DNA of 42,057 nucleotides from Rhodothermia bacterium (GTDB taxonomy: Bacteria; Bacteroidota; Rhodothermia; Rhodothermales; UBA2364), in the NCBI GenBank assembly GCA_017303715.1, contig JAFLBZ010000037.1, forward strand, positions 1 to 42,057, read 5' to 3'. Both the position numbers and the translations under genes were made by a program. The notes under the pieces were generated by a model, which ran no database searches, was not told the DNA's origin, and saw only the letters and a program-made list of their open reading frames with translations. Every line of letters begins with the position of its first letter. The first letter of the stretch is position 1. Positions 3,492 to 34,372 of this stretch are shown here, one piece after another.

Positions 3492-5348
3492 TTAGGAAGA
3501 TATTTTGTCGCCTCGGAGTTTTCGGATGCGTGCCCGGACCTCAGGGGCGAGCAACGATCCGGGATATTTCAGGAGGACATCGGCATATTGGTCAATGGCT
3601 TTTCGTTTGTCTGGTTCACTTTGCTCCAGAATTTCGGCGATGGCAAACAAGGAGCGGTCGGCCAAATAACTTTTTGCATAGTCTTTTTGGATGCTTTTAT
3701 AGGCTTCTATTGCCTCCGGAAAACGCCCCAAAGCGCTTAAAATGCCGGCGCGTGCAAACCGTGCTTCGTCCAATAAGGTGTGGTCTTTGAAGTTCGCCGT
3801 CAAGGAATCCAACTTGAGCAAGGCATCATCAAACCTCCGCTGGCGTTCAAAAAGGCGGGCCTTTGCAAAAAGGTTCATGGGGATAAACACGGAATCTTGC
3901 TCGGTATTTTCGCGGATGATGACCTTAAGCTCAATGGCGTCATTGGTAACATCGGTTGTAGTGTTTTGGTTAATCACCTCGGTGGTGGATTTTGCCATTT
4001 CAAAGTGCCCTTGATAGAACTCCATTAAGGCTTTCTGGAATTGGGCTTGCTCGGCCAATTCGCCTGTTCGTAGTGAGACATGGACTTTGTTGTAAAAGGA
4101 TTTTGCCTGCTCCAGATCGTTATTCAAAACGGAGAGTTGTCCTAATTCATATTGCGATTTCCAATAATATTCTGTCCCGAAAAACTGTTTTTCGATCCGT
4201 CGGTGTGTTTCTTCAGCTTTTCTGAGGTCAAAAAACACGGTTTGGTAAAGTTCTGCCAGTTCAAAAAGCATTTGTGGCGTTAGAGGATGAGTGGGGTAAG
4301 CATCGGCAAATTGTTGGTAGGCACGTTTTGCGGCTTCATAGTTGGGTGCGGAAATGGGCAAGCCTTCGGGCGAGAGGGCTTTTTCCATGAGTGTTTCCGC
4401 ACGTTTTCTTAGCATGGTGGCCAATGCCAGTTGTGCATTGGGGGCCATTGGTGAGGTTGCATATTGCTCCAAAATCATCTTGTAGGCTTCTTCTGCCACA
4501 TCATAAAAACCCGCATCGGCAGCCGTTTGCGCAAAGGAGAAAATATTGGCACCGTTCATGTTCTCTAAACGGTCTAAGGCCACATTTGCCTGAAGTGCTT
4601 TTTGGTAATCGCCTGCCTCCAAGTACAGCCATGCGGCCAATTCGCGATAGGTTTTATTGAGGGGTTCTAAGCGAATGGCGCGATCTACCGCCACCGTAAA
4701 GGCCGGAAGCGCTCCTTCTTGCTCGTGCATTTGCGCCAATTGTGCCTTTACAAACGAGATCATGGCCGGATTTTCTAAGATCAATGTCAAATATTCGGTA
4801 ATGGCCTTGTCAAACTTGCCCGCAAACCCATAGCCATAGGCCATTTCCATGTTGAAGAGCTTTGGTGCATTAAACTTAATCCTTGCCTTTTCTAAGAAAC
4901 CCGTTGCTTGCTCAAACAAGCGCTCGCGATACAGCGAATAAAACACCATCCGATACGTATTTTGGTCGTTTGGAGCACGTTCGATCGCTTGTTCCCAAGT
5001 ACTCATCGCCAAAAGTTCCTTGCCTTGCTTAAATAAAATGGCTGCTTTATCCGCCATAATGTTAGGGCTTGGATCCCATTCTAAACGCTGGTCAATAATG
5101 CGGAGGGCATCCTCGAACCGCTTTGAGGTGGCGTATGCTTCCCGTAGTCGGTCGTAAAAAGCGTATTCCCTTGGACTGGAAGCCAAAATGTCCTCCAAAA
5201 GTGGAATGGCTTTATCCGTCTGATTGGTGCGTAGATAGCTATCCGCCAGTTGGTATTTCTCGATATTGCCTTGTGCGTTCGTTATTTGGGCAACAAGGAC
5301 GGCGAAAAAAAGCCCCCAAAAGGGTTTTATAATGGTGCGCGTTGCCAT
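3492..5348 (-). CDS. Secreted/periplasmic tetratricopeptide-repeat protein
   Basis: Start placed at 5348 because the Met there begins a clean signal peptide (MATRTIIKPFWGLFFAVLVAQITNAQG); the frame runs 15 codons further upstream without a better start. The mature 590 residues are almost entirely degenerate TPR hairpins with alternating small and aromatic positions, for example ADSYLRTNQTDKAIPLLEDIL near the N-terminus and FERQRRFDDALLKLDSL and ALGRFPEAIEAYKSIQKDY near the C-terminus. No catalytic domain is visible. It is the first gene of the tight five-gene minus-strand run and is divergent from the caspase-like gene at 5539, with 190 bp between them. A role as a periplasmic protein-protein scaffold is inferred only from the repeats. 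Confidence 0.85.
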   Translation of the reverse strand: MATRTIIKPFWGLFFAVLVAQITNAQGNIEKYQLADSYLRTNQTDKAIPLLEDILASSPREYAFYDRLREAYATSKRFEDALRIIDQRLEWDPSPNIMADKAAILFKQGKELLAMSTWEQAIERAPNDQNTYRMVFYSLYRERLFEQATGFLEKARIKFNAPKLFNMEMAYGYGFAGKFDKAITEYLTLILENPAMISFVKAQLAQMHEQEGALPAFTVAVDRAIRLEPLNKTYRELAAWLYLEAGDYQKALQANVALDRLENMNGANIFSFAQTAADAGFYDVAEEAYKMILEQYATSPMAPNAQLALATMLRKRAETLMEKALSPEGLPISAPNYEAAKRAYQQFADAYPTHPLTPQMLFELAELYQTVFFDLRKAEETHRRIEKQFFGTEYYWKSQYELGQLSVLNNDLEQAKSFYNKVHVSLRTGELAEQAQFQKALMEFYQGHFEMAKSTTEVINQNTTTDVTNDAIELKVIIRENTEQDSVFIPMNLFAKARLFERQRRFDDALLKLDSLTANFKDHTLLDEARFARAGILSALGRFPEAIEAYKSIQKDYAKSYLADRSLFAIAEILEQSEPDKRKAIDQYADVLLKYPGSLLAPEVRARIRKLRGDKISS

Positions 5349-5538
5349 AGGACAAAAGCTGGATTTCGTTTTGGGAATACAAAAAAAGTTCATTAGATTT
5401 CAACCTGACTGTCGGACGATGTAAAAAGTTTCCGAATGAACGAAAGGAGGACTGCTTTTCGTTTATGATGAAGGTCTTCTTTGTACCGTTCAATACCTTT
5501 CATACAACCTTTTTCGCAAACATCAAACCAAATCCACC

Positions 5539-7455
5539 ATGCGTTTCCTTTTTTTATGCAGTTTTTTGTGGCTGGGCGCTGTGTCCACCACACTTGCACA
5601 AAGCGAAGAACCGGAAGAATTTCGGGGAATGCTCCAAACGGGCGATAAAAAGCTGAAAACCGGAGAATTTTATGACGAATATGTCTTACAAGTTACTGCG
5701 GGACAAACCTTGGTTCTCGATCTTTTTTCGCGGGAATTTGATCCTTATTTAATAGCTTTACCCGAAGGTGCCCAACAGCAGGACAATAACGACCACGACG
5801 GGAGCAATACAAAATCTCAAATTATTTTGTCTGTGCAAAAGTCTGGGAAACTTACCGTTCGTATCACCTCCTCACGTCCTAACCAAAAAGGGCGGTACTT
5901 GCTCACCGTTACCAACCGGAGTGAGGCATTGGCCGAGGCCACAAACCAAACGCTCTCCGGAACCCTTGCAACCTCCGATACCAAACTGACTACAGGCGAA
6001 TTTTTTGACACTTACACGGTAGAGGGGATTCCGGGGCAAAACCTGACCGTCTCGCTGAAGTCCACTGACTTTGACCCGTATCTCATCATTAAAACCCCAA
6101 GTGGCAAACAACACGAGAACGACGATGCCGGCGAAGATAAAGACCGCGCCGCGATAGACCTTAACCTGACGGAAAACGGAACCTATAAAATTTATGTGAC
6201 CGCCTATGGAAAAGGAGAAACAGGCGCATATTCCGTGCGGATTTCGACCTCAAACGATGGAACCAGTGCTGCGCAACAAGTGCAACGAGATGTTATTGTG
6301 ATGACCTTAGGGCAAACCAAACAAGGGAAATTAGAGGATGGGGACGCCACTGCGGATGATGGGGCTTACTGCGATTATTACGCTTTTGAAGGTCGGAAAG
6401 GGGATAATATCGTCCTTGAGCTATCCACAACAGCATTTGACCCTTTCCTTGAACTCATTTTGCCGGATGGAAGCGATATCACCAATGACGATTGGGAAGG
6501 GAGTAACCGTAAAAGCCGTATCGAGCTAACCTTGCCCGGAACCGGACGCTACCGCGTTACGGCTACTGCATATTCTAAAAAAGATGTGGGCGCATATAGT
6601 ATTAAGTTGCTAAGAGGCTCCAGCACACCCATTACCCGTCCAGAGCCGACGCGCCCAAATCCGCAACAACGCCCCAATACCCAACAACGTGGCGCCAATA
6701 CCAGTCCAACGGTTTATGGCCTGTTTGTAGGAATCAGCGATTATAATGGGCGGCAGTCTAATTTGCGTTATACGGCTCAGGATGCCCGAACCGCCAAAGA
6801 GGCTTTGGTTCGTGGAGCAGGGATGCCCGTAGCCAATGGCGTGGTTCTAACGGATGCGCAAGCAACAGTGGCTAATTTTAAAGCAGAATTGCGCCGCCTC
6901 GCCGCCAAGGTAACCCCACAAGACATGTTCGTCATTTTTTATTCGGGACATGGTGGACGTTATCCTCGCGAAAATTGGCAATCCAGCGACCCAGACCAGC
7001 GCGATGAGTCTATTGAATTGTATGACGCCGAAATTTTGGATGACGAAATGAGCCAGTTGTTAGACCAAGTGAAGGCAAAAACCACACTCCTCATTTTGGA
7101 TTCTTGTTTTAGTGGCGGCTTCTCGAAAGACGTCATTTCTAAACCCGGACGGATGGGCTTGTTCTCTTCGGAGGAGGACGTGACATCGGGTGTGGCCTTT
7201 AAATTCCAAGCCGGTGGCTTCTTGGCCAAGTTCTTTGCGGATGCGCTGTTGCAACCTAATGCCGATGAAGATGGCGATGGAAGCGTGTCTTCCTTCGAAC
7301 TTAGCCAGTATTTATATGAGCGTTATCGGGGAGATGTAAAGAGCAGTACAGACGATGATGACATTATCATGAGTAGCCGGAGTATGGGCTATCAAAAATT
7401 GGTGGTGGATCGGGGCAGTATTCGCCCAAACGATGTCTTGTTCAAAAAACGATGA
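5539..7455 (+). CDS. Secreted caspase-like (peptidase C14) protein with three PPC-like domains
   Basis: A signal peptide (about residues 1-20) is followed by three repeated beta domains (about 25-127, 135-240 and 250-355). Each has a 'G-x-x-x-x-G-x-x-x-D-x-Y/Y-x-x-x-G' opening and a 'FDPYL/FDPFL' strand, typical of bacterial pre-peptidase C-terminal (PPC) domains. A Pro/Gln/Arg-rich linker (360-388) leads to a p20 caspase fold starting at YGLFVGISDY. The catalytic dyad is visible: H471 in YSGHGG and C523 in DSCFSGG. An acidic loop DEDGDGSVSSFE (nt 7268-7303) looks like an EF-hand calcium site. Known orthocaspases cleave after Arg/Lys and are often calcium dependent; specificity here is unknown. 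A small secreted protein follows 30 bp downstream. Confidence 0.88.
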   Translation: MRFLFLCSFLWLGAVSTTLAQSEEPEEFRGMLQTGDKKLKTGEFYDEYVLQVTAGQTLVLDLFSREFDPYLIALPEGAQQQDNNDHDGSNTKSQIILSVQKSGKLTVRITSSRPNQKGRYLLTVTNRSEALAEATNQTLSGTLATSDTKLTTGEFFDTYTVEGIPGQNLTVSLKSTDFDPYLIIKTPSGKQHENDDAGEDKDRAAIDLNLTENGTYKIYVTAYGKGETGAYSVRISTSNDGTSAAQQVQRDVIVMTLGQTKQGKLEDGDATADDGAYCDYYAFEGRKGDNIVLELSTTAFDPFLELILPDGSDITNDDWEGSNRKSRIELTLPGTGRYRVTATAYSKKDVGAYSIKLLRGSSTPITRPEPTRPNPQQRPNTQQRGANTSPTVYGLFVGISDYNGRQSNLRYTAQDARTAKEALVRGAGMPVANGVVLTDAQATVANFKAELRRLAAKVTPQDMFVIFYSGHGGRYPRENWQSSDPDQRDESIELYDAEILDDEMSQLLDQVKAKTTLLILDSCFSGGFSKDVISKPGRMGLFSSEEDVTSGVAFKFQAGGFLAKFFADALLQPNADEDGDGSVSSFELSQYLYERYRGDVKSSTDDDDIIMSSRSMGYQKLVVDRGSIRPNDVLFKKR

Positions 7456-7485
7456 TTCACTTAAACACTTTAAAAAAATAAAGAT

Positions 7486-7935
7486 ATGAAAAAAGATTTT
7501 GCGTTTCTTTTGGTGTTTTTATTGCTGATACCCGCTATGACAACAGCGCAAAAAACCGTGGGAAGCACGGTAAATAAGGCTAAATTATTGGGGACCAGGA
7601 AGGTTTCTTTGCAATGGGTGAGCCATCAATATTTTGGAGCGGCCAAAGTAACCAACGAAAACGGAACCCTCATGATTCGTGGCGAACAACGCAGCCGAAC
7701 CACCGAGGATTATGTCACGATTAATGGTGCAGTCTTGAAAATGGTGAATGCGCGGGAATTTAAATTTAAGGGCCAAATCGTAACCAAGGTGAGCTATATC
7801 AATGGTGGCGAGCCGTGTGTACGCGATGGTGTTTATACCTTTAAAGCCACTGGAACGCGAAAATATTGGCGGCTTCAGGAAATGGAAAACTGTGAAGGGA
7901 ATAATGTCGTGGATTACGTGGACATCTATTTCTGA
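7486..7935 (+). CDS. Small secreted protein of unknown function
   Basis: A 149-residue protein with a signal peptide (MKKDFAFLLVFLLLIPAMTTAQ) and a mature domain rich in beta strands, with charged surface positions and two cysteines (in GEPCVRDG and MENCEGN) near the C-terminus that could form a disulfide. I do not recognise the family. It starts 30 bp after the caspase-like gene on the same strand and is followed by a strong terminator at 7985-8023, so the two form a two-gene unit. It could be a substrate, inhibitor or partner of the caspase-like protein; this rests only on position. Confidence 0.75.
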   Translation: MKKDFAFLLVFLLLIPAMTTAQKTVGSTVNKAKLLGTRKVSLQWVSHQYFGAAKVTNENGTLMIRGEQRSRTTEDYVTINGAVLKMVNAREFKFKGQIVTKVSYINGGEPCVRDGVYTFKATGTRKYWRLQEMENCEGNNVVDYVDIYF

Positions 7936-7984
7936 GGAAACGCCGATATATCGCCTATCGGGTTTACAACCTTGTCATAATTCA

Positions 7985-8023
7985 AAAAATGGAGACTTGT
8001 TCGCTCAACAAGTCTCCATTTTT
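7985..8023. terminator. Bidirectional intrinsic terminator (17-bp perfect stem)
   Basis: A perfect 17-bp inverted repeat (7985-8001 and 8007-8023) around a 5-nt loop begins with a run of A and ends with a run of T, so it works as a hairpin plus U-tract on both strands. It lies between the convergent genes ending at 7935 (+) and 8042 (-). Confidence 0.9.
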
Positions 8024-8041
8024 GTTTACATCTGATTTATC

Positions 8042-8791
8042 CTATGCTGCATACGCAAAAGGCGTTGCTGCAAGGTTGCCTTCTAATGGTGATAAGTCCA
8101 ATAAATTATAATGCTTAGCCTGAAAACGTTCCTTGGCTGAGTTGCCTGTTTTTGCGTTTTGGTTAAGCCCAAATAATTTAAGAATCTCCACGACAGAATG
8201 AACCTCGGTGATCAATTCTTGTTGTAAGATAATCGGTGTTTGGGTCTCGGCAATGGCTCTTGCAAATCCGGCCAAGAGGTCTTCTCGGAGATCCATCTCA
8301 TGTAAGCCAATTTGTCCAATCAGGTGAAAAGGTTCAGCCAAAACAATGTTTGGGTATTTCCACATTGCCCCAATCATGGCACGGAAAAGGTGTCTAAAGA
8401 TTACCTCTGGCGTTGTAAGTTCATCCAACCACAGCAACCGTATTTGGCGCGGTGTATAAACGCTATTTCCATACGGAACCAATGTGGGACGGACAATGAG
8501 GTGGTCTGGAATTAGGTCTAAACACGGTAAATCTAACTGACCAGCAGCATCCCTAAAGCCCACTTCAAGCGCACTTTCAATCTCAATTTGGGTGCCATAT
8601 TTCATCTTTAGGCTATCAATCGCCTCTATGAAGTTGTTGGCCCAAGTGGTCGTTTGGGTCACACGAATCGAAGCAATGAACTTTGGTTCGTTACTGCGAA
8701 TAGCGCGTTTAATGTCTTGTTCCAGCATAAAACTGGAAGAAAAAGGCTTTACATCGGGGAGGAGGTAAAAGGAGGTAGCAGGTTTTAGCAT
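8042..8791 (-). CDS. PHP-superfamily-like protein lacking the N-terminal HxH motif
   Basis: A 249-residue cytosolic protein. The pattern WANNFIEAIDSLKMKYGTQIEIESALEVGF followed by GQLDLP (about 50-87), then KYPNIVLAEPFHLIGQ (about 143-158) and a final 'A-x-x-x-x-T-P-I-I-L' strand, follows the layout of histidinol-phosphatase-type PHP barrels, where Glu in 'LEV' and later His/Asp residues bind metals. The first strand here (FYLLPDVKPFSSSF) has no HxH pair, so the classical trinuclear metal site is incomplete and the enzyme may be inactive or use another chemistry. The PHP assignment is a by-eye inference. A near-perfect 16-bp inverted repeat ends one base before the ATG (8793-8850). Confidence 0.6.
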   Translation of the reverse strand: MLKPATSFYLLPDVKPFSSSFMLEQDIKRAIRSNEPKFIASIRVTQTTTWANNFIEAIDSLKMKYGTQIEIESALEVGFRDAAGQLDLPCLDLIPDHLIVRPTLVPYGNSVYTPRQIRLLWLDELTTPEVIFRHLFRAMIGAMWKYPNIVLAEPFHLIGQIGLHEMDLREDLLAGFARAIAETQTPIILQQELITEVHSVVEILKLFGLNQNAKTGNSAKERFQAKHYNLLDLSPLEGNLAATPFAYAA

Positions 8792-8792
8792 G

Positions 8793-8850
8793 GTTGTCTC
8801 CGAGCGAAAAGTAGAGGCGAAAGAGGAACTTGGATTCGCTCGGAAACAAC
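8793..8850 (-). promoter_or_regulatory. Imperfect 16-bp inverted repeat abutting the start codon
   Basis: The arms 8793-8808 and 8835-8850 are complementary at 15 of 16 positions, separated by 26 nt. On the minus strand the right arm of the hairpin ends one nucleotide before the ATG at 8791. As RNA this would bury the initiation region; as DNA it could be a dimeric operator. It is not followed by a U-tract, so it is not a simple terminator. Confidence 0.6.
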
Positions 8851-9071
8851 GAAATTTTAGAAATATGGCGACCTAAGATTAGGTAAAACAGCCTTTTCCT
8901 TCGACAAAACCTGATGATACGACGATGGAAGCTTTAAGCAGATGATAAATGAGCCAGAATGGGCCATCGTGTTTGGAGGTTGTAAAGGTGTTTTTGAGGT
9001 ACTCTTTATGGGTTTCGGTGTTCTGATATCCGAATGTGTACACTGGTCAAGGCAATATATACTTCAAGTGC
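8851..9071. other. Intergenic stretch, no gene recognised
   Basis: Together with the inverted repeat this makes 280 bp between two minus-strand genes. It includes a short palindrome at 8871-8884 (ACCTAAGATTAGGT) without a T-tract. I see no RNA gene or convincing open frame; the promoter of the PHP-like gene should lie here. Confidence 0.4.
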
Positions 9072-9695
9072 TTATCGTGGAAATTTATACCGCATCAAGA
9101 TACCAAAGGTGGTGAAATTACCGCCACCTTCCCTATTGGAATGGATGGCCAATTCTGGAATGAACCGGAGACGTCCACGGCCTAATTCCCCACCAATAAA
9201 TACACCCGGTCCCAAATCTGCCACCTCGACATCGGTCGAGTTTCCGGCAAAAAAACCAAACCCGCGCAAGCCGCCCCAAATACGTGGCGTTCCAACCGAT
9301 ACATAAGGAATAGCCGATCCTACTACAAACACCTCTTCTTCAGATTCGCTAAAGGTAAGACCACCGAGGGCAAGTGTACCTGTTCCGCCAATGGCTACAC
9401 CCAGCTTTTCACCAGAAACAACCCGATAACGGGCATCTAAGCCTAATGTACCCAAGCCAAGACGTGCGCCCACTTGAAAACGATCCGAGACGCCGTGCTG
9501 AAGTTGTACTTCTGGTAAGCCAAAACCACCTGTACTTTCTTCGTCGGTAGTAGAAACACCTAGGCCAGATACCCCGATGCCAAATGCCGTTTCGCCTTGG
9601 TTTAGACCATAAGGCCCTTGGAAGGTACTGAGGAGCACACAGCCCGAAAGCAAACTGCCCATCAGGAAGATTGCGAATGTGTTAACGTATTTCAT
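9072..9695 (-). CDS. Lipoprotein with outer-membrane beta-barrel-like repeats
   Basis: Start set at 9695, giving a lipoprotein signal MKYVNTFAIFLMGSLLSGC with the lipobox Cys at residue 19; the longer frame adds 28 residues that break the signal. The mature part (about 188 residues) alternates short Gly-rich strands such as VGARLGLGTLGLDARYRV and GVAIGGTGTLALGGL and ends in Phe-Pro-Arg after FGILMRYKF, the look of a small beta-barrel. No family is recognised. It lies 138 bp downstream of the LPP20-type gene on the same strand. It may be a lipid-anchored barrel or porin-like surface protein. Confidence 0.75.
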   Translation of the reverse strand: MKYVNTFAIFLMGSLLSGCVLLSTFQGPYGLNQGETAFGIGVSGLGVSTTDEESTGGFGLPEVQLQHGVSDRFQVGARLGLGTLGLDARYRVVSGEKLGVAIGGTGTLALGGLTFSESEEEVFVVGSAIPYVSVGTPRIWGGLRGFGFFAGNSTDVEVADLGPGVFIGGELGRGRLRFIPELAIHSNREGGGNFTTFGILMRYKFPR

Positions 9696-9833
9696 TTGTT
9701 TTGATAGGTTTATGTGAATGAAAGTTTCTAAGATGTGAAATTCCCTTACGGCATCAGAACTAAAGGCACGATAATCCAATGCGTAAAACTAAGGTAATCA
9801 TTTTTTGTACTAAACTTGATTGCCTATCACCAC

Positions 9834-10541
9834 TTATTTAGAAGGGAGTTTGAGGTCGCTGATCCGAATCCCGTCCACTTCCATCACAATTCGTTTAATG
9901 GTTGGGGATTTGCGAATCTGGTTGAGCGAAGAAGCCCGTTTAGAAGGCCCACTAATGTTGCGCTGGTTGGGTTTCACCCGCGTTACGTTGGGTTCCCGCA
10001 CTTGGTAAAGAGGACGGGTTACAGCCGGTGGCTCGGTTCGGGGAAGTGGGCGCTCTACTTGTAATTGGTTCCACAAGTCTTGGTCGTTCCGCTCCACTTT
10101 GTAGCCTAAGTCCTTGAGAAAATTGATTTTATGAGGATATGCAACCAAAGCATACACCCGATAATGCGCACCTATGGTGCAAGGGAGAGTGGCTTTTAGA
10201 ATTTGTGTCTCGTTGAGGGCGGTAGAAGTATATTGCTCCGAAACTGACTTAAACACGCTCCGTGTCTCGTTGTTTTTGGGATCGTCGGTGAACACATCAC
10301 GTTCTACGGCCTCTACCCAAAGGTTCACGGTTTGGGCAATTTCGGTACGTGCACGTCCCACGGCACGGTCTTTGGCCCAATGTGGTTCTTTGGATTCGCC
10401 CATCCCCGGCTCAATCAGCCATCCTTCCATTTTCGGTGGTGTCCGGAACCATTCCGGCTCAGTACAGTCCTGTGCCCTTAAAAAAGACGGAAGAACGAGA
10501 AGTAAAAACAAATACTTATACATGGCCTTTGCAAAATTCAT
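9834..10541 (-). CDS. Secreted LPP20-family protein
   Basis: A signal peptide is present with either start: ATG at 10541 (MNFAKAMYKYLF...) or ATG at 10523 (MYKYLFLLLVLPSFLRAQD). The second gives a more typical leader, and I cannot decide between them. The mature protein opens with PEWFRTPP, then shows the LPP20-type block: AKDRAVGRARTEIAQTVNLWVEAVERDV, a SVSEQYTSTALNETQILKATLPC segment and YRVYALVAYP. LPP20 domains occur in envelope lipoproteins of unknown biochemical function; here the mature N-terminus is not a lipobox. The C-terminal 90 residues are Pro/Arg/Asn rich and probably disordered. The protein at 27852-29360 carries the same domain. Confidence 0.72.
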   Translation of the reverse strand: MNFAKAMYKYLFLLLVLPSFLRAQDCTEPEWFRTPPKMEGWLIEPGMGESKEPHWAKDRAVGRARTEIAQTVNLWVEAVERDVFTDDPKNNETRSVFKSVSEQYTSTALNETQILKATLPCTIGAHYRVYALVAYPHKINFLKDLGYKVERNDQDLWNQLQVERPLPRTEPPAVTRPLYQVREPNVTRVKPNQRNISGPSKRASSLNQIRKSPTIKRIVMEVDGIRISDLKLPSK

Positions 10542-29725: not shown

Positions 29726-32700
29726 ATGCGCTTCTGGAAAATAACACGGAACCTGATTTTGTTGACTTGGGTTGGCCTTTTGAGCCAAGCTAAGGCCCAG
29801 ACGTTACAGGCGCCTTTGTTGATTTTTCCGGAATTGGATGCCCAAAACCAGTCCACATTGCCCCTTTTGGATTGGTCGGATGTGTCCGAGGCGTTGCGTT
29901 ACGAAATACAAATCAGTACCCGCATAGATTTCCTTGCGGATGTGATCCCGTTCACCACAAGCGACGCCACATCGCGGCTTGCTCCAAAAGATCTCGCCCC
30001 AAAAGACCTCTTTTTAAAAACCAGCACCCTTTATTTTTGGCGTGTTCGTAGCATTGGTACAAATAACGTCGGAAGCAACTGGTCGGAAGTTCGTTCCTTT
30101 ACCACCACTTTTGCACAATTAATTACCCTTCAACAGGCCAAACCGTTAAACAATGCGGTGGATGTCCGGCCAGCGGACGATTTTTTGACTTGGAACAAGG
30201 CTTCGGGCGCAACACAATATTTAATTCAGTATGGGGAAACGAATGTCGCCGCATTTAGATGGGTTCATGAAGTTGGAAATACCGATCAGATTCGTTTGGG
30301 GGACTTGCCAAATATCAAAGGCAACCGAACGTATAAATGGCGGGTCATTGGTTATAGTAACCAGATTGCAGGTAATTGGTCGGATACATGGACGTTTTCG
30401 ACTGGGCCGGACAAACCGGATACGCCGTTGATGCTCTCTCCGGAAAATGAAGAAGATAATGTGATCTTAATTCCAGAGTTCAAGTGGTTTGTCTCTACGG
30501 GAGCCGAGCGTTATCAGCTCCAAGTCTCCCAATACCCCAATTTTCCCGATACCAGTTTAGCCGTAAACATCAGTACCACCTCGGATCGTTACAGGCCGAT
30601 TTTTGGATTAAAAAAAAATACCTTGTATTATTGGCGGATTTGGGCAAGCAACCAAAGTGGGGATAGTCCTGTTTCGGCGACGCGCTCATTCACAACGGGC
30701 AGTCTTTTGCCCGCACCCACCCAGCAGGCACAACTCTTGTTGCCTGCCGATAAGGCAAGTGACCAACTAGCAACGGTGGTTTTTTCGTGGCTACCTGTTC
30801 AATATGCCGAGGGCTATGTCTTGGAGATTGATGGCCCTGCTTTGGGGCAGGGGATCAGAGACACCTTTACAGAAACCTATGGCTCGCCTCGTGGACAAGT
30901 GCTGCCTTTGGGACAAGTCTTTACATGGCGGATCAAAGCCTTTAACCGTTCAGGATTCACCTATTCAGAAACAAGAAGTTTTAGTACAGGATCGGCACCG
31001 CTTTTGCCCGTTCTTCTAACGCCCGAATCTGGTTCCTTAACCAATTTAAATCCTATATTGGCATGGCAAACGCAAGGAAGTGGGGTGAGTTTTGAATTTC
31101 AATTGGGTTTGGATGTGGATTTTACAAGTCCCCTTCTTCCGATTACGCCCATGACCAATACCGCTTTCCCGCTAAATGCCTTGCCCTACGACAAAACCTA
31201 CTTCTGGCGCGTTCGGGCAATCAATGATTTTGGGAAGAGTAATTGGGTCGTGCGCAGTTTTACGACCATTCCGGAACGGCCTCCCAAACCCGAATTGGTG
31301 ACACCGGTCAATAACCATGCCCAAGAGTCAACATCACCAACGCTACAATGGAATGTCGCCCTCCGTGCAACGAGTTATGCCTTGATGTATGCACCCTCTT
31401 CGGATTTCTCGGAAGGCATACTTTTGCCAAGTACATCGCTTTTGTCCGCGACGCTACAAGGGCTTGAGGCTGGTCGGACGTATTTCTGGCGGGTAAAAGC
31501 GGCCAATTTAGGCGGCGAGGGCGAATGGTCGGATGTGTGGGCATTTACCGTCAAATTAGCCGCACCAATCCTCACAGCGCCGAAGACCTTAGAGGTTGTT
31601 AGGGGAACGGAAACAGATCTCATCTGGAATGTCGTTGCCAACACTACACGTTATCAATACCAAGTGTCTGAAGTGCAAGATTTTGCAAGCATCACCACAG
31701 AAGGCAGTACCCTTACCACGACCGTCAGGATAAGCAGCCTGAAGCCCCACACTGCGTACTATGTGCGCATAAAGGCGGAAAATCAAAAAACAGATAGCCC
31801 TTGGAGCGAAATCGTGCGGTTTTTTGCATATCCCAAAACCATTACTATTTCCGTTTCTAAGGACTTTCCGGAAATCCGGCGGTCAAAAGGGTATCGTTTG
31901 ATTGGGCTTCCAGGGCAGGGCATCGCAACGGCACAAAGTGGTTTTGGGGATTTAAAACCCACTCGTGAATGGAAGGTATTCCGAGACACTGGTGGCGATG
32001 GGACATACTCGGCCTTAAAACCAACCGATGTTTTGGAAACGGGCAAAGGCTACTGGGCAATTGGCCGAGAAAATTGGCAAATTGCTTCGGTTCAGACGGC
32101 GAGTGTGGTACTTTCGCCGGATCGGACGTATTCGCTTGCACTTGTTTCGGGCTGGAACTTAATCACCAATCCGTTCGATATTCCAGTGCAGTGGGTAAAG
32201 GTAAAAGCCGCCAATGGCCTTACCAAAGACCTTTTGCGCTTTGAAAATGGTAGTTTCTTGCCCGATGATACCTTGCAGCCGTATAGCGGATATTACTTCT
32301 TGAATGACCAAAACCTCACCTCGCTTCGGATTCCATACCCACCAGCAGCAGAAACGGTCTTGCCTTTAGAACCAAATGGCATTAACCTATCGTTTTCATC
32401 GGAGGCCGGAGAGCGTGCCTTTTTGCAGATTCAAGAGGGGAATACGCCGGAAAACAAAGATGCACAGCCTTTGCCCACCTCTTCCTTTGTTTTATTTGAA
32501 GCAGCTATTGTACGCCCCAATCAGCCCAAAGTCTGGAGCGAAACCCGAAAAATTGCAGAAGGGGCATTTTTCCCCATAGAAGTTCGTGCTGCCGCAGGCA
32601 CGATGCTTACCCTTCGGGCCACTTTTGGCAATGTGGGTGCGGTTTTGCGCAATCCCGCAACAGATGAACGCTGGACCTTAGCGACAAACCGCCCAATTCG

Positions 32701-33064
32701 GTTCCTTACGTCTAATGAAGTACAACGTCTTGAGTTATGGACGGGGAATACAAACTTTTTGGCAGAACAAGCCTTTTCGGAGACGCCAGCATCTTTTCGG
32801 GTTTTTGCGAACTTCCCCAATCCTTTTGAACACGAAACCCGTTTCGGTTTTACCCTGCCCACCCACTTGGCTGTTAGGGTAACGATCTCTAATGTACTGG
32901 GGCAAAAGATCCGTTTATTGGCGGAAAATGCCTACGAAGCAGGTTGGCACGAGGTATTCTGGGATGGGCGCGATGCCAATGGACATCGAATGCCCGGCGG
33001 CATCTATTTTGCGACCATAGAAGCGGGCGCGATGCGGAAAACCATCCAAATGACCAAATTATGA
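29726..33064 (+). CDS. Large secreted protein with seven fibronectin-III-like repeats and a T9SS C-terminal sorting domain
   Basis: Start set at 29726, giving a signal peptide (MRFWKITRNLILLTWVGLLSQAKAQ). Seven FN3-like repeats of 85-100 residues follow up to about residue 705; each ends in a 'T-Y/L-Y-F-W-R-V-R/K-A' strand and 'x-S-F-T-T'. A different beta region contains GYRLIGLPG, GKGYWAIG and SGWNLITNPFDIPVQW (about 715-890). The final 90 residues (VFANFPNPFEHETRFGFTLP through GIYFATIEAGAMRKTIQMTKL) are a type A T9SS sorting domain, so the protein should be exported through type IX secretion and anchored or released at the surface. It is followed after 6 bp by the HEPN-DUF3662-FHA gene. 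Confidence 0.9.
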   Translation: MRFWKITRNLILLTWVGLLSQAKAQTLQAPLLIFPELDAQNQSTLPLLDWSDVSEALRYEIQISTRIDFLADVIPFTTSDATSRLAPKDLAPKDLFLKTSTLYFWRVRSIGTNNVGSNWSEVRSFTTTFAQLITLQQAKPLNNAVDVRPADDFLTWNKASGATQYLIQYGETNVAAFRWVHEVGNTDQIRLGDLPNIKGNRTYKWRVIGYSNQIAGNWSDTWTFSTGPDKPDTPLMLSPENEEDNVILIPEFKWFVSTGAERYQLQVSQYPNFPDTSLAVNISTTSDRYRPIFGLKKNTLYYWRIWASNQSGDSPVSATRSFTTGSLLPAPTQQAQLLLPADKASDQLATVVFSWLPVQYAEGYVLEIDGPALGQGIRDTFTETYGSPRGQVLPLGQVFTWRIKAFNRSGFTYSETRSFSTGSAPLLPVLLTPESGSLTNLNPILAWQTQGSGVSFEFQLGLDVDFTSPLLPITPMTNTAFPLNALPYDKTYFWRVRAINDFGKSNWVVRSFTTIPERPPKPELVTPVNNHAQESTSPTLQWNVALRATSYALMYAPSSDFSEGILLPSTSLLSATLQGLEAGRTYFWRVKAANLGGEGEWSDVWAFTVKLAAPILTAPKTLEVVRGTETDLIWNVVANTTRYQYQVSEVQDFASITTEGSTLTTTVRISSLKPHTAYYVRIKAENQKTDSPWSEIVRFFAYPKTITISVSKDFPEIRRSKGYRLIGLPGQGIATAQSGFGDLKPTREWKVFRDTGGDGTYSALKPTDVLETGKGYWAIGRENWQIASVQTASVVLSPDRTYSLALVSGWNLITNPFDIPVQWVKVKAANGLTKDLLRFENGSFLPDDTLQPYSGYYFLNDQNLTSLRIPYPPAAETVLPLEPNGINLSFSSEAGERAFLQIQEGNTPENKDAQPLPTSSFVLFEAAIVRPNQPKVWSETRKIAEGAFFPIEVRAAAGTMLTLRATFGNVGAVLRNPATDERWTLATNRPIRFLTSNEVQRLELWTGNTNFLAEQAFSETPASFRVFANFPNPFEHETRFGFTLPTHLAVRVTISNVLGQKIRLLAENAYEAGWHEVFWDGRDANGHRMPGGIYFATIEAGAMRKTIQMTKL

Positions 33065-33070
33065 ACCAGC

Positions 33071-34372
33071 ATGTTATCGCCCGATAAACGCGCAATTCTC
33101 GCCGAGGCACTCCACTGCTTTATCGCCTCCCTTCGGCCATATATCGTCGAAAAGCTATCCTCCGTGCCCAATTCCACTTGGATTCGGCAGTACCGATCGG
33201 CACTTCCAGAACCACAACGGTCTCTTTTTGATGCGGAGGCGGAAAAGGCGGAATTGCCTGAAGAATTGATTGATTTTGGCCATTTAAAGAGTATTAGCCA
33301 ACAGCATCGCCCCTTATTTCGTGAAGATGCCGGCCCCAAAGCGGCTAATTTTCCGGTTTGGTTCGAGGAAATTAACGATGTCCGGACGCTTTGGGCACAC
33401 CATAGGCCCATAGAATTGGACGATGCCGACCATGCCTTCCGGTGTATGATCCGAATTGCCCACCTACTACACCTCGATGCCCACGAAAGCCTGATTCAGC
33501 TTCGGAGCGGTTTAGCCGCTTCTGCATCTCCCACAAACGAGGTTGCTCAACGTCCAACCGTCGAGATGATCTTAGAAATCTTAACGGCGGCATTGGAACA
33601 ACATACCGAAAAAATCTCGTCCGAAATAATGGTGGTTCCCGATCATTTTGTGGTGGAACTGCACCCCAATGCCTTTACCGCACTAACGCCACTCTTTGAA
33701 CGGATTCGTGAGGAGGCAAACAAAAGGCTGGATGATGCCGCATCGAATTTGGCAAAACCGAGTGGTCTAAAGTCGCGCATTTTGGGCTTTTTAGGGCGGG
33801 CAAATCGTCCGGCTGTCGAAAAAAGCTTAACTTGGCGGATTGAATTTGACGAGGCGGAAGATGCCGAAACCCAAGACTTTCTTTCGGTTGAGGCACGTTT
33901 TAGCCAGACCATGGCACATCAAACCGCAACCCACTTAACACGTCGGTTTACCGTTCGGTTACCCGATGGCCTGACCTCCGCAAAAGTCTTTAGCCGTCCC
34001 GATGCCTTGCCTCCAACCATCAGAAAGGCACCAGACGATTCCCCCTTTGCACGCCTAATTTCCCAAAACAACGAGGTATATGTGATGCAAAAGCCGGAAA
34101 TTTGCATTGGCCGCTTGGACGAGGAGGAACCCCTTCGAAGTGAAGTGGATTTTCGGTTAAAAACAGGTGCCTCGGTTTCTCGATTGCACTGCAAAATTCG
34201 CTACCAAGAAGGGTATTTTTATATTTGTGACCTGAGTAAATTTGGCACAACACTCGAAGGCAGGCCCTTGCCGAAGTCCCAAACCGAGGATCTTCAGTGG
34301 GATGTTTTGCCGCAAAAAGCCCGTTTAGCCCTTGGAGGCGATACGGTCTTGCGCTTCGAGGCGCTCCGTTAG
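33071..34372 (+). CDS. HEPN (Swt1-like)-DUF3662-FHA domain protein
   Basis: A 433-residue cytosolic protein of three modules. Residues 1-135 are helical and carry NDVRTLWAHH, with R105 and H110 forming the R-x4-H motif of Swt1-type HEPN domains, which are often RNases. Residues about 165-305 (ILTAALEQHTEKISSEIMVVPDHFVVELHPNAF) look like DUF3662, the FhaA N-terminal domain of Actinobacteria. Residues about 335-433 are a forkhead-associated domain: CIGRLDEEE, the SVSRLHCKI phosphothreonine-binding strand and DLSKFGTTLEG. FHA domains bind phosphothreonine peptides. No Ser/Thr kinase is in the window. Spacing of 6 bp to the FN3 gene indicates coupling. Confidence 0.8.
   Translation: MLSPDKRAILAEALHCFIASLRPYIVEKLSSVPNSTWIRQYRSALPEPQRSLFDAEAEKAELPEELIDFGHLKSISQQHRPLFREDAGPKAANFPVWFEEINDVRTLWAHHRPIELDDADHAFRCMIRIAHLLHLDAHESLIQLRSGLAASASPTNEVAQRPTVEMILEILTAALEQHTEKISSEIMVVPDHFVVELHPNAFTALTPLFERIREEANKRLDDAASNLAKPSGLKSRILGFLGRANRPAVEKSLTWRIEFDEAEDAETQDFLSVEARFSQTMAHQTATHLTRRFTVRLPDGLTSAKVFSRPDALPPTIRKAPDDSPFARLISQNNEVYVMQKPEICIGRLDEEEPLRSEVDFRLKTGASVSRLHCKIRYQEGYFYICDLSKFGTTLEGRPLPKSQTEDLQWDVLPQKARLALGGDTVLRFEALR

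Follow-up and report, generated by a model that had tools for sequence, protein, structure and literature searches.

FhaA of Mycobacterium tuberculosis (Rv0020c/TB39.8) has a DUF3662-type N-terminal domain, a disordered linker of ~300 residues, and a C-terminal FHA domain. It is itself a non-enzymatic scaffold (PMC11898655), and in Mycobacteriales its gene belongs to the operon fhaA-fhaB-pstP-rodA-pbpA-pknA-pknB (PMC11898655). HEPN domains have a predicted active site consisting of an arginine, a histidine, an upstream acidic residue, and a polar residue after the arginine that is mostly N, D, or H (PMC3710099), and those of the DUF499 ATPases in Type-1 BREX-related (BR/Hma) systems have been proposed to act as last-resort suicide RNases (PMC12839542). 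An RNase has also been found paired with an FHA domain in conflict systems, where the PIN-FHA effectors of vWA-MoxR systems place an RNase and a phosphopeptide reader in one polypeptide (PMC7159879).

The window analyzed here is a contig stretch of 42,057 nucleotides from a Rhodothermia bacterium in the genus of 'Bacteroidetes bacterium UBA2364' (Bacteroidota Order II per NCBI), for which three genomes were compared. On its forward strand, a gene at 33071..34372 encodes a protein of 433 amino acids from an ATG start that joins a Swt1-type HEPN, a DUF3662-type region, and an FHA domain. It resembles M. tuberculosis FhaA in its DUF3662-FHA architecture but differs in carrying a HEPN, in having an FHA domain without the usual Asn, and in being encoded outside the cell-wall gene cluster. 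It resembles the HEPN-DUF499 ATPases in its N-terminal Swt1-type HEPN (the nearest HEPN sequence found, from G223 at L059, is of this kind), but there the HEPN precedes an AAA+ ATPase rather than DUF3662-FHA; Pfam found no DUF499 ATPase domain in the fusion protein, and no methyltransferase-helicase partner genes of the BREX-related kind were recognized for its gene. The PIN-FHA effectors share with it the union of predicted RNase and phosphopeptide reader, although their RNase fold is unrelated and their gene context is different.

Profile searches agree with an earlier note, made from the sequence alone, for both terminal domains and in part for the region between them. HEPN_Swt1 (PF18731) scores 40.8 bits against a cut-off of 27.5 (E = 3e-10) over residues 13-130 (33107..33460), and FHA (PF00498) scores 38.8 bits against 20.7 (E = 1.2e-9) over residues 346-409 (34106..34297). 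The R105-x4-H110 motif that the note placed in the HEPN, a predicted RNase motif, is exact (RTLWAH, 33383..33400; R105 codon 33383-33385, H110 codon 33398-33400). A variable linker (residues 137-160, 33479..33550) leads to the DUF3662/FhaA N-terminal-type region, whose outer limits we infer as residues 161-318 (33551..34024). Here the FhaA_N profile (PF12401) reaches 21 bits, below its cut-off of 25 (E = 4.7e-4), over a core of residues 169-225 (33575-33745), so the FhaA assignment falls short on the protein's own Pfam score. It is supported indirectly by FhaA-type relatives that align with residues 161-433 at 26-33% identity (33% to those of G008 and G006 and 29% to the paralogue in the window genome, over the DUF3662-FHA length), because the G006 protein and that paralogue exceed the cut-off; the region thus appears to be a divergent DUF3662, as its relatives indicate. 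A PDB search with the fusion protein as sole query gave no match, and an AlphaFold model of the full protein, built from two sequences only, was left out of any fold search because its mean pLDDT was 39.7.

The two remaining genomes of the genus, G001 and G002, each have an orthologue of the gene, 71-72% identical. Between these two, dN/dS is 0.039 for the HEPN, 0.121 for DUF3662, and 0.109 for the FHA domain, with dS of 0.63-0.72 in all segments; comparisons with G000 were limited to amino-acid identity because dS was near saturation. Identity between orthologues is 90-94% in the HEPN and 29-67% in the linker. A spurious open reading frame or chance similarity is ruled out by the orthologues and dN/dS. 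The gene is under strong purifying selection, with the HEPN as its most constrained segment.

Among 244 genomes of the class, HEPN_Swt1 and FHA occur in one protein in six (the three of the genus plus G008, from family f7, and G012 and G023, both from f11), and 394 genomes drawn from the phylum yielded no further HEPN_Swt1-FHA protein. The resulting sample of HEPN-FHA proteins is small, with seven proteins from six genomes, all Bacteroidota. FhaA_N was found in 7/244 class genomes and 5/394 phylum genomes, always within the host's order, and this confinement to one order justifies the surprise previously expressed at finding such a domain in Bacteroidota. When 84,980 species genomes were scanned for patterns of the fusion protein, by a method that reaches close relatives only, one relative came up, from the same genus. 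Each of the domains was already known, but for their HEPN-FHA combination we found no earlier description in literature naming both HEPN and FHA (a scope that leaves subscription papers largely outside), and the HEPN survey PMC3710099 does not mention FHA.

The residues expected to hold phosphothreonine are kept in the FHA domain (R348, S370, and H373), but the Asn that contacts the peptide backbone is replaced by Glu (E396) in the window and G001 and by Gln in G002. Because of this replacement, the predicted affinity for phosphothreonine could be low or changed. Searched as a profile, the FhaA-type family matches 3po8 and 2lc1, structures of the FHA domain of M. tuberculosis FhaA (E about 2e-4). 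In the window genome, 17 Hanks-kinase matches pass the cut-off and there are 9 matches to FHA, so phosphothreonine ligands for the FHA domain should exist in this organism. A kinase/FHA pair was seen at L022 (G000:C14 17000-36900), where the stretch 5100-10030 on the + strand encodes, in this order, a kinase-FGE-sulfatase protein, bAvd-like and RVT_1 stretches, and a DUF3662-FHA-like protein; it looks like a diversity-generating retroelement beside the pair, with a reverse transcriptase apparently split over two open reading frames.

In an alignment of 18 HEPN_Swt1 domains, which does not include the DUF499-linked domains L061-L063, the only invariant columns are D68, L72, R105, and H110. R105 and H110 are kept in all orthologues and in 7/7 FHA-linked HEPNs, whose lineages share about 20-25% identity. 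Three of the four predicted active-site features are matched (R105, H110, and the upstream acidic D68); at the fourth, the residue after the arginine, the fusion protein has T106, which is polar but not N, D, or H, the other FHA-linked lineage has Lys, and DUF499-linked relatives mostly have N. High constraint together with this fit makes an active RNase likely. HEPN domains often form pairs, and the main rival explanation is that this one is non-catalytic, serving as a dimerization or docking module that would make an FhaA-type phospho-reader bivalent and leave the whole protein a scaffold. We regard this as possible, with odds clearly against it. The propensity for pairing, the Thr at position 106, the non-enzymatic nature of FhaA, and a conservation that spans the whole HEPN and not its motif alone would all suit such a module. 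Against it stands the invariance of the arginine and histidine across separate, distant FHA-linked lineages, and the motif can decay when it is not needed: L061, L062, and L063, DUF499-type HEPNs of family f20, have lost R-x4-H (WLLKWDH, WHLKWEH, and WHAKWEH).

Relatives of the fusion protein within the order sit in an array of kinase, PP2C, FhaA, and FtsW-PBP genes that resembles the mycobacterial fhaA operon (PMC11898655). In G008 the array runs from a WD40 Hanks kinase through a LysM-transglycosylase, an FhaA-type DUF3662-FHA protein, and a PP2C-FtsW-transpeptidase fusion to a HEPN_Swt1-FHA protein, and in G012 and G023 the HEPN-FHA protein holds the same position, directly downstream of FtsW-PBP (HEPN matches of E = 7e-22 in G008 and 1.5e-25 in G012). 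FtsW/RodA and transpeptidase form one polypeptide at L017 (10262-14416, +), L021 (6335-10000, -), L018 (361-3699, -), and L019 (11558-15229, +), the G008 version also carrying an N-terminal PP2C, and at L017 (2604-5117, +) the cell-wall cluster starts with a protein that unites a Hanks kinase and a WD40 beta-propeller. The HEPN_Swt1-FHA proteins of these three genomes are like the fusion protein in their N-terminal HEPN_Swt1, C-terminal FHA, and kinase/FHA context, but they adjoin FtsW-PBP genes, whereas the fusion gene follows a gene for a fibronectin type III (FN3) protein and lies outside the kinase/PP2C/FtsW-PBP cluster. In the window genome that cluster is on another contig (C34), where FhaA and FtsW-PBP are accompanied by a second FHA protein, which is orthologous to the HEPN-FHA proteins but lacks the HEPN. 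Presence in the window's genus is complementary, with the HEPN on an FhaA-type paralogue, the fusion gene, and absent from the cluster's second FHA protein. G001 has an extra locus, L044 (G001:C44, 466-8017, +), in which a HEPN-FHA protein (HEPN at 26.8 bits, just below the Pfam cut-off), a DUF3662-FHA protein, and a PP2C lie between two caspase-like proteins that look exported.

The two kinds of HEPN-FHA protein appear to have arisen separately. Their FHA scaffolds split at 100/99 support, with the fusion protein in the FhaA-type clade and those from G008, G012, and G023 in a second-FHA clade; when the scaffolds were compared as profiles, the alignment was confined to the FHA domains (probability 80%), and we therefore do not claim the pre-FHA region of the second scaffold as DUF3662. 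Their HEPNs also come from different branches. In BLAST comparisons, the nearest relative of the window HEPN is that of the G223 HEPN-DUF499 protein (31% identity, 71.6 bits), and it lies far from the G012 HEPN (25%, 33 bits), which itself shows up to about 41% identity to HEPNs of other DUF499 proteins. A single clade of FHA-linked HEPNs was rejected by AU tests with six rows (p = 0.019) and seven rows (p = 0.0035), and again when six rows were set against more DUF499 outgroups (15 DUF499-linked domains, p = 0.008); a single origin of these domains is thereby rejected. As judged from an unrooted tree with long branches and one DUF499 sister, at least two independent events joined HEPN to two different FHA scaffolds in one order. 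The direction, from defense ATPase to FHA protein, is inferred from how broad the DUF499 family is, the tree itself being unrooted. Since related bacteria made the same join independently, the HEPN-FHA pairing is probably functional rather than accidental. Neither this recurrence nor the tie to the cell-wall kinase cluster was visible to the earlier note.

Our preferred reading, to which we give a probability of roughly 45%, is that the fusion protein is a phospho-directed adaptor that would place a predicted and probably active HEPN RNase on kinase-marked targets of envelope growth. It would act in the cytoplasm as an adaptor-effector of a Hanks-kinase/FHA network like those that control envelope growth. 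Its FHA domain would dock on phosphothreonine produced by a kinase encoded in this genome, and its DUF3662 region would keep the protein within an envelope-growth complex. The HEPN, as a metal-independent endoRNase, would be switched on or positioned by FHA docking, and its cleavage of cellular RNA could hold back growth under a disturbance of the envelope or of envelope synthesis, such as one caused by phage. More tentatively, and with the odds leaning against it, a HEPN suicide RNase of the BREX-related kind may have been captured at least twice by FhaA-like cell-wall phospho-signaling, giving a kinase-gated RNase through which the condition of the envelope, or its attack by phage, would lead to RNA cleavage and an arrest of growth. 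Provided that the HEPN is active, the fusion would be a bacterial case of an RNase directed by the reading of an envelope-growth phosphothreonine signal, and it would connect two fields that have been studied apart, kinase/FHA control of peptidoglycan and the HEPN RNases of phage defense. That these two domain types were united more than once, and independently, lends evolutionary support to a functional link, and R105, H110, and S370, along with the simpler relatives that adjoin FtsW-PBP genes, offer concrete objects for testing it.

The same HEPN kinship could instead point to a stand-alone anti-phage (abortive-infection) effector, with the FHA domain as its trigger and no part in envelope-growth control. 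The HEPN has its closest relatives at the N-termini of DUF499 ATPases, the PIN-FHA effectors set a precedent in conflict systems (PMC7159879), and caspase-like genes flank the extra HEPN-FHA/DUF3662-FHA/PP2C locus of G001. We nevertheless consider this improbable. No defense gene was recognized near the fusion gene, and, unlike typical defense islands, the gene is conserved together with its surroundings in 3/3 genus genomes. Plasmids gave no match to the fusion protein, a plasmid search with the G012 HEPN-FHA protein matched only the HEPN halves of other proteins, and viral contigs held no relatives of the window HEPN, the G223 HEPN, the G012 HEPN-FHA protein, or the Chlorohelix HEPN. The adjacency of HEPN-FHA relatives to FtsW-PBP genes also speaks against a stand-alone effector.

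Immediately upstream, at 29726..33064 (+), lies the FN3 gene, probably co-transcribed with the fusion gene, encoding an exported FN3-repeat protein with a FlgD-Ig/T9SS-like C-terminus. The earlier note had described a giant FN3/T9SS surface protein coupled to the fusion, and its length (1112 amino acids from the ATG at 29726) and the 6-bp gap between the FN3 stop and the fusion ATG (33065..33070, +) are both borne out, as are the FN3 repeats (Pfam fn3 over cut-off). The C-terminus exceeds the cut-off for FlgD_ig; the T9SS label fared less well, since the sorting domain models stay below cut-off (TIGR04183 at 19.4 versus 23 bits). G001 and G002 likewise have an FN3 orthologue in front of the fusion gene, each with the same 6-bp spacing, so that the neighbor, like R105 and H110, is conserved in 3/3 genomes of the genus; on these two points the note withstands, within the genus, the check that it had proposed against itself. 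A DUF4384 protein, the FN3 protein, the fusion, and a methyltransferase form a block conserved throughout the genus, and because the whole block is conserved, the FN3-fusion adjacency is a weak sign of functional pairing. The coupling is a genus-level feature and carries little weight for function; a general link to FN3 proteins is ruled out by the HEPN-FHA loci of other families, which adjoin FtsW-PBP, and the proposed tie to surface-protein production is not supported. That the fusion protein regulates production of the FN3 protein, for instance through cleavage of the FN3 mRNA, is thus a very improbable reading despite the gene order and gap kept across the genus, given the FN3-free loci elsewhere and the wider conserved block in which the pair sits. 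The 6-bp junction suggests co-expression of the two proteins, and no direct contact between them would be expected because the FN3 protein is exported. Its secretion signals look real, and T9SS export is plausible because the window genome encodes the T9SS sortase PorU (1032 bits).
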